Shown here piece after piece: positions 11,218-55,450 of a stretch of DNA of 64,000 bases. Made by a program: the position numbers and the translations under genes. This stretch comes from Halalkalicoccus sp. CG83. GTDB taxonomy: Archaea; Halobacteriota; Halobacteria; Halobacteriales; Halalkalicoccaceae. The stretch covers positions 62,001 to 126,000 of the forward strand of contig NZ_JAZDDH010000003.1 of assembly GCF_037081715.1 (NCBI RefSeq), written 5' to 3'. The notes beneath the pieces were generated by a model, which did no database searches, was not told the DNA's origin, and saw only the letters and a program-made list of their open reading frames with translations. Numbering within the stretch: position 1 is the first letter of the stretch; each line of letters starts with the position of its first letter.

Positions 11218-11235
11218 CCTGGCTCATTTTGGCGC

Positions 11236-11445
11236 GCTATAGCTGATCACTATAGGTAGAGAATATAGTTATCTACTATAGTCGAGTAGTAGAGTGAAAT
11301 TCAACAAGCAAAAAAGGTAGGTAGAGAGCATAGCCATATACTATAGATAGATAATGTATTTGTAAATCATAGTTATAGAGTATAGTTATAGAGTGTAGTT
11401 ATGCTTTATGGCGACAACTAACAGGTATAGAATATAGCTATAGCG
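11236..11445. repeat. Iteron-like AT-rich repeats upstream of parA (candidate centromere/operator)
   Basis: Between the integrase stop and parA there are at least four degenerate copies of a ~25-bp unit built on GGTAGAGAATATAGTTAT and ACTATAG, beginning near 11255, 11320, 11366 and 11425. CTATAG and TATAGTTATAG recur in both orientations. Arrays of this kind upstream of a ParA-type ATPase are usually the partition site bound by the partner protein and also the operon's operator. Confidence 0.65.
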
Positions 11446-11487
11446 TCTGACTTAACTTTATAGTCATGGCTTCTGACTGCTCCATCA

Positions 11488-12794: not shown

Positions 12795-12889
12795 CGAACC
12801 AAGACGCATTCTACTGGCTGTGGAAGATACTGAATCTTCTAAGAAGTTTGGTGCTACCAGGACGGAGACTGGAGGCAACTGTGGCTATA

Positions 12890-13358
12890 TCGAAGACCTC
12901 AACGCGAAGAGGCTAATGGAACTCCCGTCGAACAGCCGGAACCGTGCCGGAGCGACATGGGGAACGTTCCTTCGGATGCTCGAATAGAAGTGCGAACGCG
13001 AGGGAGCGCACTTCGTTACCGTCGATCCCGCTGGTACTGCGAAGGAATGTTCCTCGTGTGGGGTTTCGGCGGACAAACCGCTATGGGTCGCGAGCCCTCG
13101 TGTCCGTCGTGCGGGTTCGAATCGGATCGGGACATGAATACGGCGCTGAATATCCTTTCTCGCGAACTCGATCACGTAGGTGTGGTTCACTCCGATTCAA
13201 CCTCACCAGAACGCGAAGCGTTCTGGTTGGCGAACGAGACGCATCGCGTCTCGTTAACGCCTGTGGAGACTGCGTTCCCTATGGGAATCAATTCGGTTCC
13301 TGCAAAGCGCGTCGTAGAAGCAGGAAGTCGTTCGAAAGGCGCAGAGCGCCTTTCGTGA
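12890..13358 (+). pseudogene. tnpB: Broken TnpB (IS200/IS605, IS1341-type), C-terminal part
   Basis: The C-terminal third of a TnpB RNA-guided nuclease is readable: YIEDLNAKRLMELPSNSRN (carrying the RuvC Glu region), AGATWGTFLRMLE, then an in-frame TAG at 12985-12987, KCEREGAHFVTVDPAGTAKE, the zinc-ribbon pair CSSCG, a frameshift at about 13095, and CPSCGFESDRDMNTALNIL with the last RuvC Asp. It ends AKRVVEAGS. At least one stop and one frameshift disable it and the N-terminal part is gone. Confidence 0.8.
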
Positions 13359-13440
13359 TCACGAGAGACCTTCGGTCTCTCGGACGACCCCGCCCTCAAG
13401 GAGCGAACGGCGTCAGCCGTGAGCGAGTAGGGCAGGGTAG
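13359..13440 (+). mobile_element. Right end of the dead IS1341-type element (relic reRNA/omega-RNA scaffold region)
   Basis: Directly after the tnpB stop come the hairpin AGAGACCTTCGGTCTCT and then GACCCCGCCCTCAAGGAGCG and GTGAGCGAGTAGGGC, the conserved right-end layout of haloarchaeal IS1341 elements. In live elements the guide RNA scaffold derives from this end and the guide is the flanking DNA. Here the flank is the last codons of the CBS-domain gene, whose stop codon is at 13442. Confidence 0.6.
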
Positions 13441-13441
13441 T

Positions 13442-13843
13442 TCACGAGAGCTGCGCAGTGACGTCAGTCGACGAAACCATCCCAATATAGTCGTCGTAAA
13501 TGTCGACGACAGGGAGGTGGTTAATACCGAGACTCGTCATCATTGCGGCGATCTCTTCAAGAAAAAGATCCGGCGAAACGGTTTCAACAGATGTCGTCAT
13601 CACCTCAGAAACGTTGAGTTCTGAAGGATTCTGGCCAGAAGCAATGGCGTCAAGGATATCAGTACTGGTAATGATTGACGGTGGACTGCTCGTGACGACC
13701 AGCGCCTTGATATCGTTTTCACGCATGATTTTCGCGGCTTCCATGACTGTGGCCCCCTTCGATATCGTCTCAAGGGGCGTCGACATTACCTGTTCAACGG
13801 TGACCCCATCCTCCATAGGCATATATACGTCAACAAATCGCAT
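13442..13843 (-). CDS. Two-CBS-domain protein
   Basis: 133-aa protein made only of a CBS (Bateman) pair. The first domain runs from VEQVMSTPLETISKGATVMEAAKIM to IITSTDIL, the second from VSEVMTTSVETVSPDLFLEEIA to GMVSSTDVTAQL. CBS pairs bind adenine nucleotides or other ligands and regulate partners. I start at ATG 13843; starts at Met codons a few residues later are equally possible. The dead IS1341 element abuts its last codon, so the C-terminus may have been set by the insertion. A Bateman module this small probably works as a dimer with an unlinked partner. Confidence 0.8.
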   Translation of the reverse strand: MRFVDVYMPMEDGVTVEQVMSTPLETISKGATVMEAAKIMRENDIKALVVTSSPPSIITSTDILDAIASGQNPSELNVSEVMTTSVETVSPDLFLEEIAAMMTSLGINHLPVVDIYDDYIGMVSSTDVTAQLS

Positions 13844-14033
13844 GATAATGAGTATTACGGACTCCATTGAACAGCACCGATCGGCTCTACCTGCCGAATG
13901 ATAGACGCTTCGGAGGTTCGTCGCAGCTACCGGATGCTAGCTGTTCTAGTTCAGATAGCTATCAAGCAGAGTGTCTCTTACTATGAGTGCACTCGAGAGG
14001 TTACACTGGCAAATACGCCGATAATCGCCATGA

Positions 14034-14078
14034 CCTTGTGCAACGCAAATCCGTATAGAAGATTGGAGTTGCACAAGG
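14034..14078. repeat. Long inverted repeat copy A (CCTTGTGCAAC / GTTGCACAAGG)
   Basis: Perfect 11-bp arms CCTTGTGCAAC at 14034-14044 and GTTGCACAAGG at 14068-14078, with a 23-bp spacer. It is one of four copies in this window; the arms are identical and the spacers unrelated. It lies 100 bp upstream of copy B. Confidence 0.8.
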
Positions 14079-14177
14079 CCATAGATCGGATGAGCTTAAT
14101 TCAGGCGCTAAGCCTCCGACCTCAAGGACCGAGGCACGCAGCGCGATATTTAAGCCCCTCTCGTAGTGTGAATCCCA

Positions 14178-14224
14178 CCTTGTGCAACAGCCTTAATTGA
14201 GCTAGTCACGAGTGTTGCACAAGG
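14178..14224. repeat. Long inverted repeat copy B, directly before the gene at 14228
   Basis: Arms at 14178-14188 and 14214-14224, spacer 25 bp. A TATA-like ATATTTAAG lies near 14146, so the repeat falls about where transcription should start and would form the whole 5' leader. Its right arm ends 3 nt before the ATG and includes the purine-rich AAGG that could serve as ribosome binding site, so either operator binding or an RNA hairpin could control the gene. Confidence 0.8.
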
Positions 14225-14227
14225 AAG

Positions 14228-14578
14228 ATGCCACCGACTGCACCTCCCTCGCTTCCGAACTACCTCGCTGACGGGCTCCCCAAACAAGACGACGAGATTC
14301 TTGAGGATGCACGTACGTATATCGACGAGTTGCTTGCAGCTCGCGAACAGCGTCGCAGCGAGCCAGTTACCGAAGACGAACTACCGGACGAAGCCAAACT
14401 CCTTAAGGCCGAATCAAGTGGCGCCGTCTATCTCGAATACCGAACTTGTGGTGATGAGAGCTGTTCGTGTATGAGCGGTGGCGCAAAACACGGCCCGTAC
14501 AAGTACCGAGCGTACCGCGATGGAGACACGGTTCGACGGGAGTATTTGGGGAAAGCAACCGGTAGCGACACTAACTGA
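14228..14578 (+). CDS. Small Cys-containing conserved protein (DUF6788-like)
   Basis: 116 aa. Residues 20-55 form an acidic/basic helix (LEDARTYIDELLAAREQRR) and the C-terminal half has the motif CGDESCSCMSGGAKHGPYKY followed by YRDGDTVRREYLGK, which I recall as the DUF6788 pattern, a small nucleic-acid-linked domain with a Cys cluster. Its start is preceded immediately by inverted repeat B, and a duplicate of the repeat plus the first codons (ACGCCACCGACTGCGCC) exists at 18460-18520. This makes it the best candidate for a protein that binds the repeats. Function unknown. Confidence 0.6.
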   Translation: MPPTAPPSLPNYLADGLPKQDDEILEDARTYIDELLAAREQRRSEPVTEDELPDEAKLLKAESSGAVYLEYRTCGDESCSCMSGGAKHGPYKYRAYRDGDTVRREYLGKATGSDTN

Positions 14579-14733
14579 TGCAATCACCTTCAGCCATCCG
14601 ATGAATCTATTTATTGATATGATTAGTACCGAGCTCCTATTTATCGAACAGCGGAAAGAGCATTACTGGAATATCAGCTGCTACCAGTACTCTCATGCTC
14701 ATTGAATACTGCTTCACTAACTGAGCATTCCAT

Positions 14734-15153
14734 ATGGATCTCTCAGATGACCTCCTGTGTTTGTTTAGTGGTGAAATCGATTCCCGTGACGGCTCCTACG
14801 CAATCGAGATTCCCGAACGCGAGGTAGAACTCGGCGAACTCGAGCCGGGCGTTTCGTATCGCATCGCTCTTGTTCCGCAAACCCGGATGCAGACCGACTG
14901 GGATACTAACGCCGATGAAGAAGTGACTCGAGTGACTACGGAGTCTACCCCGCCAGTTACGGAGGGTGATCACCGGACCGTCGAGATCGAGACGATCGGC
15001 GACCAGGGTGATGGGATCGCCCGAGTCGAACGAGGATATGTGGTCATCGTTCCCGATACCGACCCGCACGAACGCGTCGAGATCGAAATCACGAGCGTAG
15101 CGGAAACCGTAGCCTTCGCTGAAGTCGTCGAACGCTGCGAGTACCAAGAGTAG
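14734..15153 (+). CDS. TRAM-domain protein
   Basis: 139 aa. The last 60 residues form a TRAM beta-barrel (VEIETIGDQGDGIARVERGYVVIVPD, then VEIEITSVAETVAFAEVV), an RNA-binding fold. The N-terminal 60 residues (IPEREVELGELEPGVSYRIAL) are the usual lead-in of haloarchaeal TRAM proteins. In other archaea, single-TRAM proteins act as RNA chaperones in translation or transcript termination. It is monocistronic, about 155 bp after the Cys-cluster gene. ATG 14734 matches the usual N-terminus MDLSDD. Confidence 0.85.
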   Translation: MDLSDDLLCLFSGEIDSRDGSYAIEIPEREVELGELEPGVSYRIALVPQTRMQTDWDTNADEEVTRVTTESTPPVTEGDHRTVEIETIGDQGDGIARVERGYVVIVPDTDPHERVEIEITSVAETVAFAEVVERCEYQE

Positions 15154-15561
15154 GGACTTCCCCCCTTTGACGCGGCTAAAAGGACGTTACTAAAGGATCG
15201 AGAGTATACGCAAAATCCCGCTTACGGAGTGCTGCTGTAATCACCTAATTGTCTGCCTCGCCAGAGCGAGAACTATTCTATTCGCACAACGATGAACACG
15301 GGACCTACTGAGGCGGAGATCTCACGAGTACGCGATCGAGACCGCCCTCGTCATGACAGCAAGCGATCTCGAACAGGCATATGCCATGCGCTCGAGCGTG
15401 CCGATTCAGGATCGCCTGGAAACGTCCCCTCAAGAATATCGGAGGAGGAAACCTTGTGCAACCGTACCTCGTAAGACGCCGTTGTTGCACAAGGTGCTCT
15501 CCTTGAGATCGTTGTTCGGTTTCAACGGAGTCGTCTCGTTAGGTTTGGTTGAGTACTGGCA
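15154..15561. other. Intergenic carrying inverted repeat C
   Basis: No convincing gene. An open frame from ATG 15353 (MTASDLEQAYAMRSS) reads like a small regulator for about 33 codons and then runs into inverted repeat C, so a short gene may have been cut there. The repeat is listed separately. Confidence 0.35.
15452..15494. repeat. Long inverted repeat copy C
   Basis: Arms CCTTGTGCAAC at 15452-15462 and GTTGCACAAGG at 15484-15494, spacer 21 bp. It lies between the TRAM gene and the 3' end of the PIN toxin gene. Confidence 0.8.
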
Positions 15562-15957
15562 CTAATAGCGTCGAACGTCGAGTCCTTCGACGTGCTCGAA
15601 GTGGCTGTCACGGGTAACGATCGTCCCGCTCGCCTCGCGAACTGTCCCAGCGATCAGGACGTCTCCGAGGTTGATCTTCTGACCGAATTTTTCGAGTTCG
15701 CCGTCGATAAGTGCGGCCTCGCGAGCCGACAGGAGAGTAAGAGGGAGAGGGTCAGCCCAACTGAGTTGCTCGATCAGGTCGGCGACACCAGCCGCGCCAC
15801 GAAGACGAGCACCGCCACGTGAGACCTCGAACAAGGCGACCGACGGGATACGGTACTCTCGATTAGGATTCGCTTCGAGGAGAGCTTTCGCGCCCTCAGA
15901 AGCCGGCCTGTCCTCGTCGAGGTAATCGATAAGAAAGTTCGTATCAGGACAGTACAC
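15562..15957 (-). CDS. vapC: PIN-domain ribonuclease toxin (VapC-like)
   Basis: 131-aa PIN-domain protein, the RNase half of a toxin-antitoxin pair. Acidic residues of the active site are visible: Asp in CPDTNFLIDYL, Glu in ALFEVSRGG, and Asp in GDVLIAG and VTRDSHFE. I choose GTG 15957, giving a start 3 codons before CPDTN and a 14-nt overlap with the upstream antitoxin gene; longer in-frame starts would add residues overlapping the antitoxin. It should act on tRNA or other RNA when free, but the target cannot be read from the sequence. Confidence 0.8.
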   Translation of the reverse strand: MYCPDTNFLIDYLDEDRPASEGAKALLEANPNREYRIPSVALFEVSRGGARLRGAAGVADLIEQLSWADPLPLTLLSAREAALIDGELEKFGQKINLGDVLIAGTVREASGTIVTRDSHFEHVEGLDVRRY

Positions 15958-16297
15958 GCTCGTCCTCACGCAGGTCCTCATCTAGCTGTTCTCGCGTCTC
16001 CTCAACAGCCGCCGAAAGGTCGGTTCCTGTCCAGGAGCCGTAGCCTTTCAGTAGGTCTCGCTCTTTGGAATCGGACGAGGGGATCCACCAGACTCGTGAT
16101 CGGCTACCAACTTTCTTCGAGACGACCATTCCCTGGTCGGCAAGTTCGTGGAGTTTGTTGAGGGCGGTCGTCCGCGAACAGCTGAGTGCCTCGGCGATCT
16201 CAGGAGCGGTTAGTGGCTCATGGGGATCCTCTCGTAAACGGAACTCCTCGAGGACGTCCTCAAGCGTCACCCGTGGTGAGGGACCTGGCTTTGCCAT
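15944..16297 (-). CDS. Winged-helix antitoxin paired with the PIN toxin
   Basis: 117 aa. Residues 10-70 form a winged helix: LEDVLEEFRLREDPHEPLTAPEIAEALSC, RTTALNKLHELADQG, VSKKVGSRSRVWW. The C-terminal 40 residues (GTDLSAAVEETREQLDEDL) are acidic and should wrap the PIN toxin. This replaces the AbrB, MetJ or Phd types usual in VapB. The gene overlaps vapC by 14 nt. TTCACGTGAA boxes just upstream probably mediate autorepression. Confidence 0.75.
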   Translation of the reverse strand: MAKPGPSPRVTLEDVLEEFRLREDPHEPLTAPEIAEALSCSRTTALNKLHELADQGMVVSKKVGSRSRVWWIPSSDSKERDLLKGYGSWTGTDLSAAVEETREQLDEDLREDERVLS

Positions 16298-16307
16298 ATC
16301 GATCTAG

Positions 16308-16343
16308 ATTCACGTGAAGACTATAACCCTTCCCACGTGAATT
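16308..16343. promoter_or_regulatory. Palindromic TTCACGTGAA operator boxes around the antitoxin TATA box
   Basis: TTCACGTGAA (perfect palindrome, 16309-16318) and CCACGTGAAT (16333-16342) flank ACTATAAC (TATA in either sense, about 16319-16326), immediately upstream of the antitoxin ATG at 16297. A third half-match, TTCACGTA, is at 16395-16402. Two boxes about 25 bp apart astride a promoter are what an autorepressing wHTH antitoxin would use. Confidence 0.65.
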
Positions 16344-16577
16344 CAGATGCGATGAAATACGCTCTATACGCCAAATCAATCCGTTATTATTCTATTCACG
16401 TAGGAACAGATAGAGCAAACAGTGTCGCAGGAACTAGCTAGGGCTCGGTAGGACTCAAATCAAAATCAGGTTCTCGACGCTACAGAGTGACGATCGCGTA
16501 GCACTCTACTACCGTGATCACATGGAGAGAGCGTGAAACGAAAGGGAAGATCCTCAGTCACTGGGTGAGTAGTAGAA

Positions 16578-17774
16578 TCAAGCAGATTGGCAAGCCTCAA
16601 CAACGATCTCCGGATCATCGACGAGCTCGTTTACAGTGTGAGCACCCTTTCCTTTGCCTCGTCCCTTTCGCTCTTGTTCAATAAGCGAGAGAAATGCAAG
16701 TTCGGAGAGGAGATCGCGAACTCGGCGCATCTTCAGCGGTTCAGCACCTTCACGTTCACAGACGATTTGGTAGGCAGAATGAATTTGTTTCGAGGGGATC
16801 ATCGGTTCATCCTCGGAGGATTCCTGCATTCGAAGGGCAAGTGCCAGCATTAGGTACTTCGAGTGTGTCGGCTGTTTTGAGATGAGCTCCGAAAGTCGAG
16901 CCTGTTCTTCACGGTCATGCGCCTCATCAACGTACTCGATACTGACGGTATCGTCACCGTGTTCGTCAGCGATCTCACCAGCGTAGCGAAGAATATCGAT
17001 TGCTTTGCGAGCATCACCATGTTCGCGAGCAGCAAGTGCTGCGACCTTTGGGATCACGTCTTCATTAAGGACGTCTTCACGGAATGCGTCCGCACGCGAC
17101 TGGAGGATCGCCTGGAGTTGGGAAGCATCGTAGGGAGGGAACACGAAGTCACGCTCGGAAAGGCTCGATTTTACGCGTTCGTTCAATGTCTCCTTGTAGC
17201 GAATCTTGTTGCTGATGCCGATAATCCCGAGCGTGGAATCATCGACTTTGCCCGCCTCTGCTGCACGCGAAAGCTGCATCAGAACGTTATCATCTTCGAG
17301 TTTATCGATTTCGTCAAGAATGATAATTCCCACATCGAGGCGAGCATCGAGAATTTTCCAGAGCCGCCGGTAGTAATCAGAGGTACTCACTCCGGAGTGT
17401 GGAACGGTCGTCTCCGTCTCCTCGGGATCGTTAAGCGATTCGGCGATGGTCCGAACTGTCTGTGTCTCAGTCGACTCTTGAAAACAATCAACGTACGCGA
17501 TGGCGACTTTCACACCGTTTTCGGCGGCGGCATCAGCGAGATCACGTGTGATATACTTTGAACAGAGGCTCTTCCCGGTTCCCGTCTTCCCATAAATTAG
17601 AACGTTGTTCGGTGTTCCGCCCCGTTGTGCATCCTTGATCGCCTTAGCGAGACTTCGGAGTTCGTCGTCCCGACCAATGATTCGGTCACCTTCAGGAAGG
17701 TGACTAACGCGGAGGAGCTCCTTGTCGGCGAAGATCGGATCAGGATCGCCAAAGAATGATTTCGATCCACTCAT
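16578..17774 (-). CDS. orc1: Orc1/Cdc6 replication initiator
   Basis: 398-aa AAA+ initiator. Walker A YGKTGTGKS at residues 61-69, Walker B IIILDEIDKL at 150-159, sensor 1 around GIIGISNKIRY, and a C-terminal winged helix from about 305 (QPTHSKYLMLALALRMQ to the basic GRGKGKGAHT) that contacts origin boxes. All ATPase motifs are intact. The gene is transcribed away from the box clusters at 17818-18417, the classical layout of an archaeal origin with its cognate initiator. Start ATG 17774 gives the standard N-terminus with ADKELLRVSHLP. Confidence 0.95.
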   Translation of the reverse strand: MSGSKSFFGDPDPIFADKELLRVSHLPEGDRIIGRDDELRSLAKAIKDAQRGGTPNNVLIYGKTGTGKSLCSKYITRDLADAAAENGVKVAIAYVDCFQESTETQTVRTIAESLNDPEETETTVPHSGVSTSDYYRRLWKILDARLDVGIIILDEIDKLEDDNVLMQLSRAAEAGKVDDSTLGIIGISNKIRYKETLNERVKSSLSERDFVFPPYDASQLQAILQSRADAFREDVLNEDVIPKVAALAAREHGDARKAIDILRYAGEIADEHGDDTVSIEYVDEAHDREEQARLSELISKQPTHSKYLMLALALRMQESSEDEPMIPSKQIHSAYQIVCEREGAEPLKMRRVRDLLSELAFLSLIEQERKGRGKGKGAHTVNELVDDPEIVVEACQSA

Positions 17775-17817
17775 AGCGGGTATCTCTCAAGGATGGGTAA
17801 TGAATCTTCGCCTACTA

Positions 17818-18417
17818 CAATGCCGCTGTAAGGGATGTCATGAATTAGGATGAAGAACGAAAACACCACTTTCAGAGGATGTGAGGCGTGGTTATTAGCG
17901 GTTCATCGATTTCGGACCCCTCATTGCCGCTGTAAAGAGGGGACACACCCACCCCGGATTGCCGCTGTAAAGAGTCGAGGTAGAACCCCACTCGAAATCA
18001 AGCTCGAAGAGGAGATGAGAGGGAACAAGTGAGCCGATCTTCCCATAGAACCGATGATCCAGCTAGAGAGTAAACCCTTCCTTCGACTCTTCGGCGGCAA
18101 AAGCAACTGCCGCCTCAGTACGCCAAAAGTGCAGTACGGTAACAAACGACTCCGACCGTCATAAGCCTATGGGTGGATATCAGCTAGATGACTTCTATAG
18201 GAGATTTCCTTAATCGCAACTTTCGGGAAACGTCCGGGAGTTTTACAGCGGCAATCCGGGGTGGGAGCATCCATCTCGGAGTCTCTTCATCTCTTCTGAA
18301 GCAGATCACGTTTACAGCGGCAACACGGGGTCAACCGATGCTTCGAATCAAGTGTCTCATATCGTAAGCGCGGATTCCTCCATCTACGCCGAAATTTACA
18401 GCGGCAATCCGGGGTGG
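17818..18417. other. oriC: Replication origin with inverted clusters of origin recognition boxes
   Basis: Upstream of orc1, three boxes in one orientation (partial 17818-17832; 17916-17936; 17948-17971, CCCCGGATTGCCGCTGTAAA) face three in the other (18241-18265, 18310-18334, 18395-18417, TTTACAGCGGCAATCCGGGG). The G-rich end of each strong box points away from the central 270-bp interval 17972-18240, the likely unwinding region. This arrangement with a cognate orc1 is typical of haloarchaeal origins. Confidence 0.88.
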
Positions 18418-18459
18418 TAGACCGACTTCCGGTTTACTACTTCGATCCCGTTCTCGGAA

Positions 18460-18501
18460 CCTTGTGCAACAACTCGATAGAACGCGAAACGTTGCACAAG
18501 G
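18460..18501. repeat. Long inverted repeat copy D with a duplicated gene start
   Basis: Arms at 18460-18470 and 18491-18501, spacer 20 bp. The bases after the right arm (GCCACCGACTGCGCCTTCCTC, 18506-18526) match the first codons of the gene at 14228, which follows copy B, then diverge. Copy D is therefore a fragment of a duplicated repeat-plus-gene unit lying next to the origin boxes. Confidence 0.75.
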
Positions 18502-18799
18502 TAACGCCACCGACTGCGCCTTCCTCATTATTTTCAGTACGTTGTAATATTGCTGCCTATGGTCAGATTCGATCGAGAGCGAGCAGCGACCGCCCTGAGC
18601 GCGAACCTCGCGGCTTGATTCCTCGTACCTCCGTGAATATCATAGGGACGATCGCGCAGTTCACCGGAACTCCAAGACGGCCTAACCACCCGTCTCACTT
18701 CTCAGTCGTCTCTTCGAGATCACTTGAATGAATAATCTACTTTACGATAGGTTATTGGGGATCCAAAAGTTGATGACACAGCTCTAAGAGTATGGTACT

Positions 18800-18940
18800 A
18801 TGGCTCACTGTGACGACTGTGGCCAACACGTGACCGCAGATTTCCACCGCGTCTTCGCCGACAATGACGGCGTTCTCTACGGTTGTCCAGCCTGTCTGAG
18901 TGCAACAGCAATCAAGGATGGAAAAGCGACTGGCCTCTAA
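18800..18940 (+). CDS. 46-aa zinc-finger protein
   Basis: ATG 18800 opens MAHCDDCGQHV, then DFHRVFADNDGVLYGCPACLS and a short tail ending GKATGL. The CxxC...CxxC spacing makes a small zinc ribbon of a type I recall as DUF7563, common in haloarchaea. It is too short for standard gene finders, but the motif is complete and framed by start and stop. It lies 300 bp from the origin. Role unknown, possibly nucleic-acid binding. Confidence 0.65.
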   Translation: MAHCDDCGQHVTADFHRVFADNDGVLYGCPACLSATAIKDGKATGL

Positions 18941-19706
18941 TCCTGCAGTAGCGGTTTGGGAAGCCAGAACTCGGGATGAGTGGGTCCCAGTCGCCCTCGA
19001 CAGCTCCTGAGTCCTGCTTGGTACGGAACCGCATCCTCGCCTCGTATGGATCTTACAAGAGTTCTGCATCTAAACCCTCGTACGATCTGTTCATTTGAGA
19101 GGACTACTATCACTTCACACCGATATGTCGGATCGAAAAATCTGATCCCCAGATTGTTTGAAGAGCAATTCACACAGACACTTCTCTTGCCCATCTAGCG
19201 AGGAATTTGTAGACTGACCCTCGCACAACGATCGCTCCGGCTTCAGCGGAGTTATCCATAACTCAATCCCCCATCCGAGGTACAGTGTTAGTAGCCACCA
19301 GCATCGGCAAAGCAGCGGCCGCATTTGGTGCCAGTATCCTTATCGAGTACCTGTTCTACAGAAACCAGCTGGAGGTGATTATGACCGACGTGATTCGTGG
19401 CGCCACAGACCGTCCGGCCATCAGAGCTTCCGGGTTGCTGTTTATGGATTATGCCTGTCTCCTCGTTGAGAACCCCATTCATGAGTAGGGGAGTCTCAGA
19501 CCAGTGGCTAAATGTCTCACCTTGATATATTCAGACTATTACGTTCTAAAGCGCAGTAAAGACGAGCACCCTCGTTGAATCGACCTGGTCGTTGGGGATG
19601 AGACAGACGATCCATGAACCGAGAGACGGAGTCTACTCCTGTGAGTGGTTTCTATCGCAGTGCCAATCTCCCTACTGTTTAGATGATAGCTGCTGTAGTA
19701 CAGACG
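18941..19706. other. Intergenic with gene debris
   Basis: No intact gene. The stretch contains the possible permease scrap at 19285-19488; the rest shows nothing recognisable. Confidence 0.4.
19285..19488 (+). pseudogene. Possible fragment of a membrane permease
   Basis: An open frame reads FGASILIEYLFYRNQL, EVIMTDVIRGATDRPAI and ASGLLFMDYACLLVEN, with a rhythm like the last helices of peptide/nickel ABC permeases (DppB type). There is no convincing start and no neighbouring transporter gene. It may be a decayed piece; weak evidence. Confidence 0.22.
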
Positions 19707-19967
19707 ATGCCCGAGATTCAATCGGTTGATACCGAGGACGACTATATTCACGTGCGCTTTCGCGATCCCGATCAGTATGAGACGATTCGGACACCTGATT
19801 GGGCGAAAGAGCCCGCCGAATCCGTTTCAGAGGGCGCAGAGGTGCGGACCGGTGAGAAGGACGGCAGTGATGACTGGGAAGTCCAAAGCGTTCTGATCAA
19901 GAAAAGTGTTGGTGAGGACAAAGCGAAAGAGCAGGCGAAGGAGATCGTTGAGAAGATCCAGTCATAG
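19707..19967 (+). CDS. Small acidic conserved protein
   Basis: 86 aa from ATG 19707 (MPEIQSVDTED). It is highly charged, with a predicted strand-rich centre (YIHVRFRDPDQYETIRTP), WEVQSVLIKK and a C-terminal helix DKAKEQAKEIVEKIQS. Composition and layout match small hypothetical proteins of haloarchaea; no function recognised. It stands alone between the origin region and the second orc gene. Confidence 0.5.
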   Translation: MPEIQSVDTEDDYIHVRFRDPDQYETIRTPDWAKEPAESVSEGAEVRTGEKDGSDDWEVQSVLIKKSVGEDKAKEQAKEIVEKIQS

Positions 19968-20411
19968 CAGAGGATCGGGCCCAGGAACTATCTTACATTG
20001 GCATTACAGTATGAGAGACAATACGATGGAGCTGCTGAAGGATCACAGTTGCGACTCCTGGGTACCGACTCCGTAGCCACCGCCCCCGTAGCCACCGCAG
20101 AAATTGAGGTCGCTTCTCTCGTAATTTGGGGTTGTTCCTCTTCTTCACCAGTAGAAGCGGTTACTGTGGCCTCGGTGAGTTGACGCGCAAGACATCTACT
20201 TGCGATTCTCTAAGCGGTGCGATCGAACTCCTCTATGGACTCTCTGTGAATCCTTTATGAGACGTAGTGTCTGAAATACCGATTCGACCATTTCGCGCCG
20301 ATTACGAGTATCTCGTCGATTGTCGACCGACTTCCTACTAGTACCTGTTCGGAACTTTCGGAAAGACCCCAGTATCGTTTATTACCCTTCATTCGCAATC
20401 CATTCTGCAAT

Positions 20412-21440
20412 GTGATCACGGACGCTCGAGTGTTTCAAGATACGTTCGTCCCTGAAGAGGTCGTTCACCGCAATACGGAACTCACACACCTCTCCGGGGT
20501 CCTTGCGCCTGTTCTGCATGGAGAGCCTGCTGAAACGGCCGCTATTTTCGGACCGACGGGTGTCGGGAAAACCTGCTGTGCTCGCTACGCTGTCGAACAG
20601 CTTCGCGAGAACTCATTCAACGTTCGGACTCAGTACGTCAACTGCTGGCAGGACTACAACCGATATCGGGTGCTCTATCGGCTTCTCGAAGGACTCGATC
20701 GAACGCTCGACATCCATCGGCAATCAACGCCCCGCGATGTTCTCTATGATCGCATTCGCGAGGCGAACGACGATCCCTACGTCGTCGTCCTTGATGAGGT
20801 CGACCAACTCGAAGAAAAAGACGTCCTCTATGATCTCTACACACTATCTCACATATCTCTGATTCTCATTGCAAACGACGAGCAGGAGTTTTACTCGAAC
20901 CTCGGCGATCGCCTCTACAGTCGGCTCACCGGCAGCGAGAGGGTCCAATTCGATCCATACTCTCTCGATGAAATCGTTGCCATTCTCGATGCGAGAGCCA
21001 ATTCGGGGCTTGCAAACGGGGTTGTTTCGCCCGCGCAGATGGAACTGATAGCTGACCGAGCTGCTGGGGACGCTCGCGTTGCAATCGGAATTCTCCGAAC
21101 GGCCGCTCGCAAAGCTCATCGCGACGGCACTGGGTGTCTCACCACTGAAATCATCGAAGCGGCGGTTCCCGATACTCGCTCGGAGCTTCGACAGAAAACG
21201 ATCGAACAGCTCTCGCATGATCAACAGATGCTCTACGAGATCATCGAAGAACATGGGGAGACGACACCGGGGACACTCTACGAAGCGTACGAACAGCGCT
21301 GTGACGATCCAAAGTCTAGACGGAGCGTTCGGAACTACCTGGGGAAGATGGAACACTACCATCTGATCGATGCCGAGGGCGAAAAGCGAGCCCGGGTCTA
21401 CCGACTTTCGGAAAGCGCTTTCGGAGCCCAGAATTCCTAA
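20412..21440 (+). CDS. Divergent Orc1/Cdc6-like AAA+ protein
   Basis: 342-aa Orc1/Cdc6 homologue. Walker A GPTGVGKT at 47-54, Walker B VVVLDEVDQL at about 124-133, sensor region SLILIANDEQEF, sensor 2 area GDARVAIGILRTAARKA, and a C-terminal winged helix LSHDQQMLYEIIEEHGETTPGTLYEAYEQR. It is shorter than the origin-linked Orc1, with a reduced N-terminus. The start is GTG 20412, since the overlapping ATG runs at once into a stop. No origin boxes were found around it. Instead it heads a set with the RecA-like, small and polymerase genes, so it may load or regulate that polymerase rather than fire an origin. Confidence 0.88.
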   Translation: MITDARVFQDTFVPEEVVHRNTELTHLSGVLAPVLHGEPAETAAIFGPTGVGKTCCARYAVEQLRENSFNVRTQYVNCWQDYNRYRVLYRLLEGLDRTLDIHRQSTPRDVLYDRIREANDDPYVVVLDEVDQLEEKDVLYDLYTLSHISLILIANDEQEFYSNLGDRLYSRLTGSERVQFDPYSLDEIVAILDARANSGLANGVVSPAQMELIADRAAGDARVAIGILRTAARKAHRDGTGCLTTEIIEAAVPDTRSELRQKTIEQLSHDQQMLYEIIEEHGETTPGTLYEAYEQRCDDPKSRRSVRNYLGKMEHYHLIDAEGEKRARVYRLSESAFGAQNS

Positions 21441-21548
21441 TCCGAAAATCGACTGACGACAGCGACGTCAGACGAGAAACAGTCTCTTTTCGGCAGTATC
21501 GGTACTGACACGCCTTCACTTATTCCAGTTGTGATACATGATCTTGCC

Positions 21549-22238
21549 ATGGAATCCCATCGACCGAACCGCATTCCGGAATTACCCTCGCTGTCAGGCG
21601 GGGTACATCTGCTCGAAAGCGAGTCCGTTCGCGGTCCATTACAGACGCTCGTACTGGATCACGTCCTCACCAATCGTGGACCAGCCTATTGGATCGACAC
21701 CCACGGCCATGCGACAACCCAACCACTTGCCCGACTCGCACCGGATCCACAGGTACTCGATCGAATTCGCGTTGCTCGTGGGTTCACTACCGTTCAGCAC
21801 TACGCTCTCACTGAAACGCTCGCCACTGTCGTTGATGGCACTGCCTCGCTGATCGTCTGTCCGGCGGTCGACGGCTTGTATCGCGACGATGGATTTCGAG
21901 AGGACGAACGCCAGGCGATGCTCGTCCGGGTTCTCGCAATGGTGTCGGCGTTGGCTCGGGAGTACGATCTTCCAGTGGTGCTCACGCGAACTCAGGGGGA
22001 TGCGTTCTCTGAGCCCGTGGCCAACGCTGCCGGAGACGTCATCGAGTGCGAACAGACACGCATGGGACCACGATTCTGTAGCAGCACGTTTGAAACGCTC
22101 GTTTACCCACTCGGGAACGGGCAAGTTCAGACGACACTTTCCTTCTGGGAGCGGATACTGAAGGCACGACAACCGGTCTATGACACCGCTCAGATCGGCC
22201 CGCAGTCTCCGGAGGTGCCTGCCGATGGGACGTACTAA
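21549..22238 (+). CDS. RecA/RadA-superfamily protein without a P-loop
   Basis: 229 aa. The pattern follows the RecA core: LSGGVHLLESESVRGPLQTLVLDHVL sits where Walker A and the next helix should be, but Gly-Lys-Thr is replaced; AYWIDTHGHAT corresponds to strand 2, RIRVARGFTTVQHYAL to the RadB-like segment, and ASLIVCPAVDGLYRDD to Walker B. It should therefore not hydrolyse ATP in the normal way. The gene overlaps the next by 14 nt. An inactive RecA relative beside an error-prone-type polymerase recalls bacterial ImuA with ImuB/DnaE2; this parallel is inference. ATG 21549 is chosen over an in-frame GTG at 21531. Confidence 0.7.
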   Translation: MESHRPNRIPELPSLSGGVHLLESESVRGPLQTLVLDHVLTNRGPAYWIDTHGHATTQPLARLAPDPQVLDRIRVARGFTTVQHYALTETLATVVDGTASLIVCPAVDGLYRDDGFREDERQAMLVRVLAMVSALAREYDLPVVLTRTQGDAFSEPVANAAGDVIECEQTRMGPRFCSSTFETLVYPLGNGQVQTTLSFWERILKARQPVYDTAQIGPQSPEVPADGTY

Positions 22239-22506
22239 TCCGACCTATCGCGACGTTCTACGAGCACTCGACGATCAGTGGTCGGACTATCGACGAGGGC
22301 TTCGCCGGGAGGATCAACAGCGCTTCGATCAGCTCTTTGCGTATATTCGCGCCCATGCCGATGCTAGTGGCTATCTCAATCATACGGAACCGTTCTACCC
22401 GGCGTTAGTATCGATCGACCTCGAACAGGAGACGCGTCTTGACGAGCTTGAAAGTCGACTTGAGCAGTTAGAAAACGAGACTGACCCATCCAACGATGGG
22501 GAGTGA
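22225..22506 (+). CDS. Small coiled-coil protein of the polymerase operon
   Basis: 93 aa from ATG 22225 (MGRTNPTYRDVLRALDDQW). It is helical and charged, with a distinctive centre FDQLFAYIRAHADASGYLNH and a C-terminal heptad-like segment LDELESRLEQLENE. I recall this as a conserved haloarchaeal family that travels with PolB2-type genes. It overlaps both neighbours (14 nt upstream; the downstream GTG start would overlap by 4 nt), so the three proteins are translated together and probably form a complex. Likely an adaptor. Confidence 0.65.
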   Translation: MGRTNPTYRDVLRALDDQWSDYRRGLRREDQQRFDQLFAYIRAHADASGYLNHTEPFYPALVSIDLEQETRLDELESRLEQLENETDPSNDGE

Positions 22507-22514
22507 CAAGGGCG

Positions 22515-24635
22515 ATGGTCTATAAGATCGACTTCCTCGAGGATGTCTATGAGTGGTCGATCACTCCCGACGGTGCTAGCTACGAGCGAGTGACCGACTA
22601 CACGCCGACGATTTACGTGACGTATGATGGTCGAGCGGACGATGGACCTCCCGATCTTCGAGAACGCCTTGAGGACTATCCGACAGTGGTTTCGATGGGA
22701 ACCGAACGCTGGCGTCGGGGCTTTCGCCACGAGCATGAACCCGTCCTTCGGATCGATGTCAGAGGGCTTGATGCTGTCCGCTCGCTTGCCTCCAGGATTC
22801 GTCGGCTCGGCCAGCCGGGTGAGTACAAACTCTACAACGTGGACCTCTCACGGGAGTTTCGCTACTGCTTAGAACGTGGCTGTGATCCCACACCGACCCG
22901 TGTCCCCTCGGCGCTCTCGATCGATGTTGAACCACCCGCACTCGCGGACCCACCGATCACTGAGATCACGATCGATGAGGAGACCGTGACGGGCTCACCG
23001 GCGGCAGTACTGTACGCGATTCAGCGACGACTTCGGCAGCGTGACCCGGATGTTCTGGTACTCTCCTCGGGTGAGCTCATTCCGAGACTCTCTGAAATGG
23101 CCGACCAGCACAATGTCAACCTCCGGCTCGGACGACGGTCGGGCTGGCAGCGACTTGCTGGGCGTTCGACCTACGAGAGTTATGGCAGTGTTGGGCACTC
23201 CCCGGCTCGATATAACGTTCCGGGCCGGGTGATTATCGATCGCTCGAACACGTTCTTTCACTCCCAGTCAGGGTTGGATGGCTGTCTGGATATGGTCCGT
23301 CGGTCGGGGAAACCACTCCAGGAACTCGGGTGGGCGTCGATCGGAAACGTTCTGACCGCGATTCAGATTCGGGAAGCTCGAGATCGGGAAGTGTTAGTGC
23401 CGTGGAACTCGTGGCGCCACGAGTTTTTCAAGCAACTCTCGACGTTACACGATGCCGACCGAGGCGGGTACACGTTTGCCCCGGAGGTCGGCTTTCACGA
23501 GGACGTCCATGAGCTCGATTTCTCTTCGTTGTACCCGAACATCATCTGCCAGTTCAACGTGAGCCCTGAGACGATCCGGTGTGACTGTCACGCCGATCGA
23601 GCAGACGTGCCCGGCGTGGGGTATTCCGTTTGTGATGACCGTGGGTATCTCCCGGATGTGTTACAGCCGTTGATCGACGCCCGTGATGCGATGAAACAAG
23701 AGATTCGAGAGATCGACGATCCGGAGCGAATAGCGGCGTTGAAATCCCGATCAAACGCAATCAAGTGGATTCTGGTGAGCTGTTTCGGTTATCAGGGATT
23801 CAGTAACGCGAAGTTCGGTCGCATCGAGTGTCACGAAGCGATCAACGCTTATGCTCGCGAGATTCTGCTCGACACCAAAGAGACGTTCGAGGCGAACGGG
23901 TGGCATCTCTTGCATGGAATCGTCGATAGCCTCTGGGTGACTGCGATTGACGACCAGGAACAAACACCGCTCGAAGAGCTTGCGGGGACGATTACGAAGC
24001 AGGTGGGAATCCGTCTCGAATACGAATCGGCCTTCGAATGGCTTGCACTCGTTCCGTTGCGTGATGGCGATGAGGGTGCACTCACGAAGTACTTCGGCAA
24101 AGTAGCTCGTGAGGACACCGAGCACGAGCCGGCGTACAAGTACCGCGGCCTCGAGTGTCGTCAGCGTTCGACCCCAGACTGGATCATGAGTGCCCAACAG
24201 GAATTAATCGAGACGTTGGATCAGTACCGTTCACCAACTGCCGTCTGTACACGTCTCCAACGACAGCTCGCGGAACTTCGCTCCGGGCAGGTCGATCCAC
24301 AGGCGCTTGCAATTGACAACCGTGCTTCGAAGCACGTCGAGGAGTATACGTACGCTACACGAACGGTCGCCGCGCTCAAGCGGGCCCGAGATGGTGGACT
24401 CGATCTGCAACCCGGGCAGAACGTTTCATACGTAGTGATCGACGACTCGAAGCGCTCCCGGGATCGTGTCCAACTCGCTCATGAATCGCCCGAACGGTAC
24501 GACGCCGAATTTTATGCTGACCTGTTGATCCGCGCTGCCGAAAGCGTCTGCTCACCGCTTGGATGGCGACGGGCGGATATCGAGACGTACCTTTCGGAGC
24601 ATCGAGATAGCACATTAGCTGCCTTTCATCCGTAG
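22515..24635 (+). CDS. polB2: Family B DNA polymerase (PolB2-like), exonuclease-dead
   Basis: 706 aa, shorter than the roughly 800-900 aa of replicative archaeal PolB. Motif A DFSSLYPNII at about 335-344 and motif B KSRSNAIKWILVSCFGYQG from about 410 are good. Motif C reads HGIVDS (467-472) instead of YGDTDS: the first Asp is lost and the second, a metal ligand in characterised enzymes, is kept. The exonuclease region (SALSIDVEPPALADPP, DPDVLVLSSGELIPRL) lacks the Exo I Asp-x-Glu and Exo II Asn/Asp residues. It may therefore polymerise without proofreading, or be structural. ATG 22515 matches the expected N-terminus; GTG 22503 would overlap the previous stop by 4 nt. Confidence 0.85.
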   Translation: MVYKIDFLEDVYEWSITPDGASYERVTDYTPTIYVTYDGRADDGPPDLRERLEDYPTVVSMGTERWRRGFRHEHEPVLRIDVRGLDAVRSLASRIRRLGQPGEYKLYNVDLSREFRYCLERGCDPTPTRVPSALSIDVEPPALADPPITEITIDEETVTGSPAAVLYAIQRRLRQRDPDVLVLSSGELIPRLSEMADQHNVNLRLGRRSGWQRLAGRSTYESYGSVGHSPARYNVPGRVIIDRSNTFFHSQSGLDGCLDMVRRSGKPLQELGWASIGNVLTAIQIREARDREVLVPWNSWRHEFFKQLSTLHDADRGGYTFAPEVGFHEDVHELDFSSLYPNIICQFNVSPETIRCDCHADRADVPGVGYSVCDDRGYLPDVLQPLIDARDAMKQEIREIDDPERIAALKSRSNAIKWILVSCFGYQGFSNAKFGRIECHEAINAYAREILLDTKETFEANGWHLLHGIVDSLWVTAIDDQEQTPLEELAGTITKQVGIRLEYESAFEWLALVPLRDGDEGALTKYFGKVAREDTEHEPAYKYRGLECRQRSTPDWIMSAQQELIETLDQYRSPTAVCTRLQRQLAELRSGQVDPQALAIDNRASKHVEEYTYATRTVAALKRARDGGLDLQPGQNVSYVVIDDSKRSRDRVQLAHESPERYDAEFYADLLIRAAESVCSPLGWRRADIETYLSEHRDSTLAAFHP

Positions 24636-52390: not shown

Positions 52391-52715
52391 TCCTCGAAGT
52401 CCTTTTCGCCCTCGGAGCGGTTTTTGCGTGTAATCACTTCCCTGGAGACACAGACGTGGTGAAGTGAATTCCTATCGTGCACTAGTCCTTCGTAGATGGG
52501 ATGATCTGGGTAGTGCTCGGCTATCAGTTTTGGACACTCGTAATCAATCGTATTCTCAGATAACGGTGGATATTAGCACGCGACTCGTTTAGGTAACCTC
52601 CTCTGAATGAGACGATCATCACCGTACTTGCGGACACAGGATTCTGTGTCGGCAAGCCCGTCGCTCTAGGTTGATAGAATATTATTTACGGCACTACCCA
52701 GAACGTTCGCCTGGT

Positions 52716-52789
52716 GCCGGAGTAGCTCAGCCTGGCAGAGCAACTCCTTTGTAAGGAGTTAGTCAGGAGTTCAAATCTCTTCTCCGGCT
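52716..52789 (+). tRNA. tRNA-Thr (anticodon UGU)
   Basis: Cloverleaf by eye: acceptor GCCGGAG with CTCCGGC (52716-52722 / 52782-52788), D arm GCTC...GAGC, anticodon stem ACTCC/GGAGT around TTTGTAA (anticodon TGT), T stem AGGAG/CTCTT with one G-T pair and loop TTCAAAT, discriminator T. CCA is not encoded. No intron. An isolated tRNA gene in such a region is also a classic integration target. Confidence 0.88.
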
Positions 52790-53207
52790 TCGCAATCCAA
52801 AGCTTGTCGAGATCATAGCTGTACGCAAACGAAGGCCCGGAGTTGCAGTCGATCGGTGGTCAATTCAGTCGGAATATACTCATCCTCGGGTTCAACACGG
52901 CTGTTCCGTCCATATCGCGGTTTAAAAGAAGTACTTCTCAGACGATCCATTCGAGCGGACTAATTACACGATCCCTCTCACTGAAGTACGGTTCGTACAG
53001 CCACTCAGTGTATTGACCTCGCTGTCTGTATTGGGCCTTCAGTTCTCTCTGTATTACCTTCTCGGGCTGTTCTTGTAGTAGAGAGCTCACAAGGATTCGT
53101 CTGCACGTTCTACAGTTCGGCGAACGGCGGCACGTCGATGCGGATGCTTCAACCCAATAGGGTTCGTCTGAAAGTGTCTACCGGCTTTGAACCCAGTTCA
53201 GCTGTCG
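52790..53207. other. Intergenic after the tRNA, nothing recognised
   Basis: I found no gene, and no repeat of the tRNA 3' end that would mark an attachment site within this stretch. Confidence 0.45.
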
Positions 53208-53393
53208 TCAGCGCTGGTTTCGGTCTCTGTTGTCGACGTTTGAGTCCTTATTAACTTTTTCTTGAATTTTATAAATACGATCCTTGGCCTGCTTTTTGTC
53301 CATGCTGGTTCGCTTGCTGACTTGTTCTGCTACCTTGTCTTCGTGACCCTCTATGAGGCCAATGAGCCGACGGAGTTTGGCTTTCATGCTCAT
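53208..53393 (-). CDS. Small basic/acidic helical protein
   Basis: 61 aa from ATG 53393: KAKLRRLIGLIEGHEDKVAE, then QVSKRTSMDKKQAKDRIYKI, QEKVNKD and a polar tail. Two helices with mixed charge; resembles small conserved haloarchaeal proteins without assigned function. Alternative starts exist at 53402 and 53387. Confidence 0.45.
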   Translation of the reverse strand: MSMKAKLRRLIGLIEGHEDKVAEQVSKRTSMDKKQAKDRIYKIQEKVNKDSNVDNRDRNQR

Positions 53394-53577
53394 TTCATCC
53401 ATATCTTCGGCTCGCGTGTCCGAAAAGGTGGTGTCTAGGTCGTGGACTCACCACCCACCACTCTCGCTTGAAGGATCTCTCTGATCAGCGCGGCCAACAG
53501 GCCGACTATGCGGCCTCTCTGAACGAGTGCGCTGATATCGATTCGAACCGACTGTGGATTTCTCCCACTGAACCCGA

Positions 53578-54513
53578 TCAGCTCGGTTTCGAACCGATGA
53601 TTTGATTACCGATTTGATCTCGGAGGTCGAATCGCTCTATAAACCAATCGAAATCGTACTTCAGTGAGGTAGCTAATGCATCTCGACGCTCCCACACATC
53701 ACTTCCAGCTACCATCTTCATGGCCTCTTCAACTTCGTTTGGAAATAACTGCGTGTAATGTCGGACCATTTGCAGGCATGCTAACTCATTGAGGTAGAGA
53801 AAGCCAAATCGAATATTATTATGAATCATAAACGGACGAGTCTCAGAAATAAATGTCTCTCGTTCATACCGGTTTTTAAATCGGTGAGCGATCCGTAATG
53901 AGGGATTGGCGACGATTTCAGCGCCTGTAAGCCATGCCCGGACGCTAAATTCCGGCTCTGCGCCTCCGTAATATTTCATCCCTTCATCATATTTTCCAAT
54001 GTGTTCAAATAATGATCGTGGAATTACTGTACCTGCACAAGAGGAGATTTGTACTGGGTCACCTGTCGCTAGATTGCGGCGGTTCCAATGTGTACCCATA
54101 AAAGGAACGACGAGGTTGCAACCGTGTGCTGCGAATTCTGATTTCTGATCCGTTATCGTTGCTGCTACAATTCGTGAATCTTTCGTCGTCTCATACAGGG
54201 CTTGATCCCACCCGTCAGAAGGTTGTACATGGGAATCCGTCATAAATAACAACTCGCTCGTAGCGGCGCTTGCACCTCGATTACGAGCACGCGGTACCCC
54301 TAATCGATTTTCCGATCGGATAACGTTCAGAGACACGGAGTTTTCGTCAATGTCGATATCCTCACAGCACCCATCTGCAGAGGCATCGTCAACGATTACG
54401 AATTCGATCGGGTGGTCAGTTTGCCGGTTAGCTATAAATTCGGATATGGTTTTCTGTACTCTTCCAGATTCATTTCTTACTGGAATAATAATACTGACTG
54501 AGGGGGTGGGCAT
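53578..54513 (-). CDS. GT-A glycosyltransferase resembling polypeptide GalNAc-transferases
   Basis: 311 aa. GT2-type core SIIIPVRNESGRVQKTI and FVIVDDASADG, metal-binding DSH at 93-95 (FMTDSHVQPSDGW), where polypeptide GalNAc-transferases have DxH, then the acceptor/donor loop SCAGTVIPRSLFEHIGKYDEG, YYGGAEPEFSVRAWLTGAEI and His210 in RIAHRFK. The GG.E.E.S.R.W..G sequence is the hallmark of the GT27 ppGalNAc-T group and of some peptide-glycosylating GT2 enzymes. It starts 4 nt after the stop of the small leader-like gene at 54518, its probable substrate. No membrane segment or lectin domain. The sugar donor is unknown. Confidence 0.8.
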   Translation of the reverse strand: MPTPSVSIIIPVRNESGRVQKTISEFIANRQTDHPIEFVIVDDASADGCCEDIDIDENSVSLNVIRSENRLGVPRARNRGASAATSELLFMTDSHVQPSDGWDQALYETTKDSRIVAATITDQKSEFAAHGCNLVVPFMGTHWNRRNLATGDPVQISSCAGTVIPRSLFEHIGKYDEGMKYYGGAEPEFSVRAWLTGAEIVANPSLRIAHRFKNRYERETFISETRPFMIHNNIRFGFLYLNELACLQMVRHYTQLFPNEVEEAMKMVAGSDVWERRDALATSLKYDFDWFIERFDLRDQIGNQIIGSKPS

Positions 54514-54517
54514 CTAA

Positions 54518-54865
54518 CTATGACTTCAGAAATCGTTGGACTCTCTCTGCATAATCCGGATCCTGTAGAATCCTCTGTGTGACTTCAAGAAGGCGCTCTT
54601 TTGGGAGATCCTCTAACCGGACTGGCGAATCAACATCTCCAGTAATAGTACTTCCTGTAGTAAACGTATAACTGGTCGTACTTCCTGCTACAAGTGGATT
54701 GTGCGGCCTCCCTACAAGTAGTAGGTCTGAACGCTGTAGGGCCTGAATTTCCCGTTCTTTCAATCCGAGTTTCTCTCCTAATGCCTCTGGATCTTTACGA
54801 AGTAACCGGAGATCTTCGGGATTCTTGCTGATTTTGTTAATAACCGCTTGTGTATCCTGACTCAT
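54518..54865 (-). CDS. Candidate peptide substrate with leader-like N-terminus and Thr/Ser-rich segment
   Basis: 115 aa. Residues 1-50 (INKISKNPEDLRLLRKDPEA, LGLKEREIQALQRSDLLLV) follow the LigA/Nif11-like leader pattern seen in precursors of ribosomally made modified peptides. Residues 61-75, GSTTSYTFTTGSTIT, contain ten Ser or Thr in fifteen residues and would be the modified region. Residues 81-115 form a charged helical follower. The gene precedes the glycosyltransferase in the same operon with 4 nt between them. Family not confirmed; it could be a structural rather than secreted peptide. Confidence 0.6.
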   Translation of the reverse strand: MSQDTQAVINKISKNPEDLRLLRKDPEALGEKLGLKEREIQALQRSDLLLVGRPHNPLVAGSTTSYTFTTGSTITGDVDSPVRLEDLPKERLLEVTQRILQDPDYAERVQRFLKS

Positions 54866-55253
54866 GTTGCTTGTCCAACCATCTATACCTGACGGCCAGT
54901 GTTATGTGTTACCACCTATAAAGACATAAATCTATTGTCAGGAGTGAGTATATTGTTACTCATAGTGTTTATCATACATGATCTACGAACTACAAAATTT
55001 GCCATTCTCCACTGCATGCTGCTCTCGTCAAGAGCGGTGGCTCTGGATCAACACAGGAGATCGTCATCTAAGCCCCTTCGTTTGCGATCCATGCCTGCGT
55101 TCAGTGGTGATGCATACGAGGCTCGAACGGTAGTGATGGCAAATACGGTAGAGACCAGCCGTTGTTAGGATGGTTGCGAGTTCGCCATCGGTTGGGTTAA
55201 GAAAGTGCCAGTCACTCCACGAGAGGTCGAGACCGTCGGTTGTAGATCTGGTT
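54866..55253. other. Intergenic, promoter of the peptide/glycosyltransferase unit
   Basis: An AT-rich segment (54900-54990) precedes the peptide gene on the minus strand. I see no gene in the rest. Confidence 0.4.
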
Positions 55254-55450
55254 TCATGAGTGGTCGTTATACCAGGCGAGTGTCTCGCTAAGATAGAGAC
55301 CTTCCGTCGGGATTTCGATCGAGACTGGGTTATTCTCGAACAACGGGAGTAAGGGTTCGTAGTAGGCTTTCCCAGCGTGAATCACGAGGGTTGTATTGAT
55401 ATTCGAATGAGAGCTTCGCTTACGAAATCGCTCCGATTGAACCCCTTTTC
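55254..55450 (-). pseudogene. C-terminal remnant of a DUF6884-like protein
   Basis: The frame reads INTTLVIHAGKAYYEPLLPL, then VSIEIPTEGLYLSETLAWYN and DHS before TGA at 55254. This ending is what I recall for DUF6884 proteins. No start and no N-terminal half are present. Confidence 0.5.

Follow-up and report, generated by a model that had tools for sequence, protein, structure and literature searches.

Does the small protein encoded immediately upstream of a glycosyltransferase in Halalkalicoccus sp. CG83 serve as the acceptor of that enzyme? A first-pass annotation of the 64,000-nucleotide stretch of DNA analyzed here (the window) had proposed as much, describing a candidate archaeal glycosylated-peptide system in which a GalNAc-transferase-like enzyme has its own peptide gene, in the layout of bacterial glycocins. 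We asked which of these statements hold for the gene pair, for the enzyme, and for the small protein. The features of the locus are as follows.

53578..54513, minus strand: GalNAc-transferase-like GT-A glycosyltransferase (GT), 311 amino acids (open reading frame [ORF], Pfam GT2, PDB sequence matches, AlphaFold2 [AF2])
54518..54865, minus strand: gene of the small protein, 115 amino acids, candidate glycosylation substrate (ORF)
54917..54922, minus strand: TTTATA, possible archaeal TATA element, ~50 nt before the start of the peptide gene (our reading of the sequence)

Layout and origin of the gene pair

Both genes lie on the minus strand with the peptide gene upstream, and only 4 nt (ttag) separate its stop codon from the ATG of the GT gene, so that the coordinates and the spacing of the 115-amino-acid ORF agreed with the first-pass annotation. 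The GC3 was 0.37 for the peptide gene and 0.42 for the GT gene, compared to 0.66 to 0.76 for most of the neighboring host genes, and both proteins of the pair carry a near-neutral net charge, while those of the neighbors are acidic. A few neighbors are also low in GC3, for example, a BrkB-like gene (0.50). On the basis of the low GC3 and of the nonacidic proteins, we conclude that the pair is foreign to its Halalkalicoccus host. The description of the system as archaeal holds, as the DNA flanks and matches to plasmids place the host in Halalkalicoccus, but the cassette is foreign to this host.

Searches of the other available Halalkalicoccus genomes, of 390 haloarchaeal-class genomes, and of a phylum sample did not find the pair. 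In Halalkalicoccus sp. FCH27, sequence related to the left flank, with a resident gene of 64 amino acids (see below), runs on to about position 53488 and then diverges. Given the foreign composition, the absence elsewhere, and this break, the two genes look like a single, horizontally acquired cassette. The tight linkage and the common foreign composition, together with the RiPP-leader-like N-terminal domain predicted for the small protein (see below), also lend support to the earlier suggestion that the GT has a peptide gene of its own.

No exporter gene, ABC transporter/protease, or thiol oxidase was identified in the neighborhood of the pair, and no other sugar genes were identified near it. 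A basic ORF of 64 amino acids located downstream (53208..53402, minus strand) was considered as a part of the cassette but was rejected as a resident Halalkalicoccus plasmid gene; it is 85 to 92% identical in other Halalkalicoccus plasmids, and its counterpart in strain FCH27 is without a listed gene. Likewise, we do not claim a role in leader removal for a nearby trypsin-like protease gene, since it has the composition of the host and the opposite orientation. Other Halalkalicoccus genomes carry copies of short stretches from the flanks of the cassette (53450..53559, 52714..52795, and 55254..55396) at several sites each, and one further copy of 53460..53559 lies in the replicon of the pair itself, suggesting mobile-element relics around the insertion. 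Further away, positions 10018..24635 encode an integrase, a family B DNA polymerase, a ParA-like ATPase, and two proteins of the Orc1/Cdc6 type, which gives the plasmid-like replicon the look of a megaplasmid or of a carrier of a virus-like replication module.

The glycosyltransferase and its relatives

The residues of the GT that bear on its assignment are as follows.

54229..54237, minus strand: DxH metal motif, D93-S94-H95 (DSH), aligned to DAH of GalNAc-T1
53944..53973, minus strand: G-loop/xED region, residues 181 to 190, YYGGAEPEFS (alignments to GalNAc-transferases)
53884..53886, minus strand: H210, at the place of the C-His that is the third metal ligand in GT27; its counterpart in GalNAc-T1 is the His of GHVF

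The GT matched the Pfam family GT2 (1e-18), and its best matches in a sequence search of the PDB were eukaryotic polypeptide GalNAc-transferases (GalNAc-Ts), at 7e-18 for the GT alone and at 7.5e-23 for a two-sequence GT profile, for which the best non-GalNAc-T reached 1e-8. Searches with the AF2 model of the GT (pLDDT 92, built from a 30-row alignment) gave the same picture. The best 50 matches listed by Foldseek were all GalNAc-Ts, and in VIA-align the GalNAc-Ts reached Z scores of 26 to 30 over 278 to 298 residues, corresponding to the whole catalytic domain, while other proteins scored 24 and below, including the galactofuranosyltransferase GlfT2 (Z 20.6 to 23.9) and polysaccharide synthases. 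Sequence and predicted structure thus strongly support the assignment of the GT as a GalNAc-transferase-like enzyme, in agreement with the first-pass annotation; cell-wall glycan synthases, which had been named there as a possible better match, scored below the GalNAc-Ts. SunS was absent among the matches listed by Foldseek and VIA-align, although the two enzymes may still be related.

The motifs singled out earlier were also found, since DSH is present and GGAEPEFSVRAW fits GG.E.E.S.R.W. Families GT27 and GT60 are characterized by DxH in place of DxD, and in GT27 a C-terminal histidine (C-His) binds the metal (PMC7185993). The corresponding residue of the GT, H210, is invariant in the alignment of the GT family, and as judged from these alignments, the DxH motif and the C-His form a GT27-type active site. 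The Glu-Asn pair of the GalNAc-Ts (GGEN), which contacts GalNAc, is replaced in the GT by Ala-Glu (GGAE), and the position of the xED Asp is occupied by Glu. The donor sugar and the stereochemistry may thus differ from those of the GalNAc-Ts, given the first substitution, and so may the mechanism (retention), given the second.

In addition, the GT ends after the catalytic domain (311 amino acids) and has no C-terminal ricin-type lectin domain. The GT27 GalNAc-Ts are thus its best relatives by sequence and structure, with the DxH motif, the C-His, and the whole catalytic domain in common, but the GT differs from them by the missing lectin domain, which is usual though not universal in GT27, by Ala-Glu instead of Glu-Asn, and by an identity of only ~22%. 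No orthologues of the GT were found at E ≤ 1e-12 in Halobacteria (~390 genomes) or in the wider phylum.

Scanning genomes for the pattern of the GT sequence alone yielded no relatives; a profile scan led to a locus in a Bacteroidota metagenome-assembled genome (MAG), L039. Its GT is the closest one found (38 to 39% identity) and the sister of the window GT in the tree (support 100/99), but it carries DAN and not DxH. In this locus the GT is preceded by lysozyme-like proteins with repeated Thr-containing C-terminal tails (SQSIVAIVA..NVTTAAITAITAIA), and no homologue of the small protein lies beside it. The three consecutive proteins located directly before the GT (3..2051), two of them phage-lysozyme-like and one weakly similar to the endolysin of a gene transfer agent, have this hydrophobic tail of ~35 amino acids in common, and it occurs nowhere else in the genome of that MAG.

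More distant relatives were found next to proteins rich in Ser and Thr. In Brevibacillus panacihumi (L046, 5986..9342), a 1312-amino-acid, surface-like protein ending in (TEPS)n repeats stops ~230 bp before the GT gene; the latter is split by an apparent two-gene insertion (ATPase and transposase-like), and its C-terminal part resumes within 8890..9342. On a phage contig (L121, 745..7536), only 9 bp lie between the end of a 1119-amino-acid protein with (SPS)n repeats and a GalNAc-T-like GT; next come a second GT, to which a methyltransferase-like domain is fused, and more methyltransferase- or sulfotransferase-like genes.

Another GT2 clade, encoded on IMG/VR phage contigs (L038 and L125 to L171) and characterized by a C-terminal WF..KF motif, is far from the window GT in the tree; the neighbor here is a Ser-rich (SPSASxS)n protein of 220 to 540 amino acids. 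In 37 of the 40 loci of this type (34 of 37 after some near-duplicates were dropped), the same strand encodes a protein in which Ser and Thr make up half or more of a 40-residue stretch, in most cases a few genes upstream of the GT. Among the 773 ORFs of other GT2 loci, 4 showed this density. These numbers have to be read with the mutual relatedness of the phage loci, which are not independent, and with a comparison set of other GT2 loci rather than matched viral ones, since scans for viral control loci returned none. Judged by gene content, these GTs and their Ser-rich neighbors look like a virion glycoprotein system, the virion glycosylation of mycobacteriophages being a comparable case of a GT with a Ser/Thr-rich protein. 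Both these phage GTs and that of L121, GalNAc-T-like or GT2-type, thus resemble the window pair in their proximity to a Ser/Thr-rich protein but differ from it in that the proteins are large and repetitive and the GT clade is distant.

In the isolated Tunturiibacter phage Tunturi_4 (L175 1567..2565), a related GT lies between the genes for the terminase large subunit and the portal protein, a placement suggesting capsid glycosylation. Relatives in Rossellomorea and Cytobacillus showed no obvious Ser/Thr-rich neighbor beside the GT. Overall, the neighboring genes support Ser/Thr-rich proteins as acceptors for a broad group of these GTs, and they bear on the window pair by analogy only, not as proof.

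The small protein

Three segments of the small protein were delimited.

54719..54865, minus strand: predicted helical domain similar to the borosin-binding (RiPP leader) domain of SonA/OphA, residues 1 to 49 (AF2 and VIA-align)
54641..54685, minus strand: Ser/Thr-rich candidate core, residues 61 to 75, GSTTSYTFTTGSTIT; predicted beta-hairpin 63-67/73-77 (low confidence)
54524..54601, minus strand: C-terminal helices predicted behind the Ser/Thr block, residues 89 to 114 (AF2, low confidence)

As the first-pass annotation had pointed out, 10 of the 15 residues at positions 61 to 75 are Ser or Thr. When the small protein was shuffled 20,000 times, no 15-residue window ever reached this density. 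The protein is also the only one of the 86 ORFs called in the window of DNA to show it, and among 773 ORFs from 80 other GT2 loci, only three did. The block is internal and is followed by a C-terminal part of ~38 residues, predicted to be helical by AF2. This differs from a standard RiPP precursor, in which a leader is followed by a C-terminal core, whereas here the Ser/Thr block sits in the middle of the chain with a helical tail behind it. The 115 residues include no Cys.

The small protein was modeled with AF2 from its single sequence, giving a mean pLDDT of 51, with values of about 49 to 70 for the N-terminal 40 residues and ~50 to 70 over the helices of residues 1 to 49. When this model was compared to known structures by VIA-align (652 chains re-aligned), the six best rows were all leader/clasp domains of borosin precursors (OphA and SonA), with Z scores of 4.0 to 5.0 over ~49 residues and 18 to 24% identity, followed by an unrelated row at Z 2.8; all these scores are below 8 and were obtained with a low-confidence model. 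In borosins, this type of domain (BBD) serves as the leader by which the precursor is held to its enzyme, and related domains cap the active sites of dioxygenases (PMC8429565). The fold match is thus supportive, but no proof, of a leader-like domain in the first ~50 residues, and the leader-like N-terminus proposed earlier gains modest support from it, in line with the low confidence of the model.

Sequence searches with the small protein gave little. None of the curated families, including the RiPP leader models NHLP, Nif11, and LigA, reached its cutoff; the Os1348 leader of the NHLP clan remained below the threshold (E 0.07 to 0.09; 13 bits for a cutoff of 40). Two further matches, to the STI1/HOP DP domain (E 0.0015, sub-threshold) and to Ddi2 HDD (0.12), were judged to be echoes of short helices and were discarded, and a PDB sequence search with the N-terminus returned nothing significant. 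No homologues were found in 391 haloarchaeal-class genomes, in its own genome (beyond itself), in 198 genomes from the class to which the Bacteroidota MAG belongs, or in the plasmids, phages, and viral contigs searched. Weak matches at 0.003 to 0.1 in the haloarchaeal-class genomes looked like chance hits in unrelated frames.

A possible acceptor and the rival readings

We lean, by a little, towards a reading in which the horizontally acquired two-gene cassette yields a glycosylated peptide or small protein and in which the small protein is the acceptor of the GT. Its N-terminal helical domain, of the borosin leader type, would bind the GT and the Ser/Thr segment at positions 61 to 75 would be presented to a stand-alone, lectin-less GalNAc-transferase-like enzyme, which would add one or more sugars to Ser/Thr hydroxyls in the cytoplasm. 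The metal would be held by D93, H95, and H210, and the donor would be a nucleotide-sugar. Ser and Thr residues of a polypeptide are proposed as the acceptor because the closest relatives of the GT, the GalNAc-Ts, use them, and cytoplasmic O-glycosylation of the block is suggested by analogy with glycocins and GalNAc-Ts. Of this reading, the pairing of the genes, the Ser/Thr block, the kinship of the GT, and the foreign composition are established, and the leader-like domain has some support; the identity of the acceptor and of the sugar we infer, and the product might be cut and exported and might act in antagonism, signaling, or surface decoration. Against it speak the L039 locus, whose GT lacks DxH and has no such peptide at its side, the relatives in Rossellomorea and Cytobacillus, the distance of the phage clade from the window GT, the low confidence of the leader match, the replaced Glu-Asn pair, and the missing exporter. 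A more specific version, which we regard as possible but on balance doubtful, is that of an archaeal glyco-RiPP class, in which a borosin-type leader would guide the lectin-less GT to an internal Ser/Thr core to give a mucin-like glycopeptide.

The pair does not coincide with any of the systems to which we compared it. In glycocins (sublancin/SunS and glycocin F), a dedicated peptide gene adjoins a glycosyltransferase gene, as in the window, and glycosylation is presumed to be cytoplasmic. However, glycocins have paired Cys residues, nested disulfides, and a helical hairpin, whereas the small protein is devoid of Cys and hence of a disulfide-framed hairpin. Moreover, they have a linked ABC transporter/protease and thiol oxidase, none of which was identified by the window pair, and the GT of the latter resembles GalNAc-Ts. 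Because Cys residues and a linked exporter are missing, the pair is not a glycocin by definition, and what is left of the glycocin layout put forward earlier is a functional analogy, namely, a peptide with a GT. In borosins (SonA and OphA), the N-terminal helical leader domain of ~50 residues is the best fold match of the low-confidence model of the small protein, but the partner in the window is a GT, with no adjacent or fused alpha-N-methyltransferase, and the candidate Ser/Thr core lies inside the chain, ahead of a tail predicted to be helical. Since no N-methyltransferase is adjacent, the pair is not a borosin. The haloarchaeal lanthipeptides (archalans) are also modified peptides of haloarchaea, but they are made by LanM. 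The classes listed in a survey of 11,644 archaeal genomes are lanthipeptides, YcaO, rSAM, and lasso; glycosylation is not mentioned in its main text (PMC12144867). In the open-licence literature on archaeal glycocins, on borosins with a glycosyltransferase, and on prokaryotic GT27, we found no pair of this kind.

The O-glycosylation of peptides in the manner of mucins, by enzymes like the GalNAc-Ts, is considered to be a trait of eukaryotes. If true, the glyco-RiPP reading would describe the first such system in archaea, with bacteria as the probable source by horizontal transfer. A prokaryotic enzyme this compact that comes with a peptide substrate of its own would be a simple model for the origin and the acceptor choice of GalNAc-Ts, a small tool for engineering glycopeptides in the cytosol, and the maker of a new kind of archaeal peptide product. 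The relatives located near Ser/Thr-rich proteins, in phages as well as in bacteria, would point to a broader branch of prokaryotic protein O-glycosylation that has been little described.

Rather than modifying the small protein, the GT could act on other proteins of a virion, the S-layer, or the archaellum, with the small protein as a partner that covers the active site or as an adaptor that brings in the acceptor. Homologues of the BBD indeed cap the active sites of dioxygenases (PMC8429565) and of borosin methyltransferases, and the placement of the Tunturi_4 GT, like that of the other relatives near phage Ser/Thr-rich genes, is consistent with such a role; we nevertheless consider it unlikely, as it leaves the Ser/Thr block unexplained and no surface or virion gene is linked to the pair in the examined part of the window. 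That the GT is a GT2-like polysaccharide enzyme making a glycan or a glycolipid, with a small ORF unrelated to its substrate, appears less probable again. The Pfam family GT2 consists mostly of glycan enzymes, generic GT2s are ~25% identical to the GT, and the related GlfT2 scores as high as Z 23.9, but GalNAc-Ts stand above all glycan synthases by both sequence and structure, and the neighborhood offered no further sugar gene.

Alternatively, the pair could be a moron of a halovirus or plasmid and the small protein a glycosylated structural or superinfection factor instead of a secreted natural product. The plasmid-like replicon, with its ParA, integrase, Cdc6, and PolB genes, the AT-rich foreign DNA, and the phage relatives of the GT would fit such an origin, but no viral structural gene was identified beside the pair and the phages and viral contigs searched gave no homologue of the small protein; we rate it as quite improbable. 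Finally, neither protein is adapted to an acidic, halophilic proteome, and the pair is missing from the other Halalkalicoccus genomes searched, as would be expected of recently imported genes that are decaying or unexpressed and have no function. To this we attach very little weight, since both ORFs are intact, their spacing is operon-like, and the metal-binding residues of the GT have been kept.
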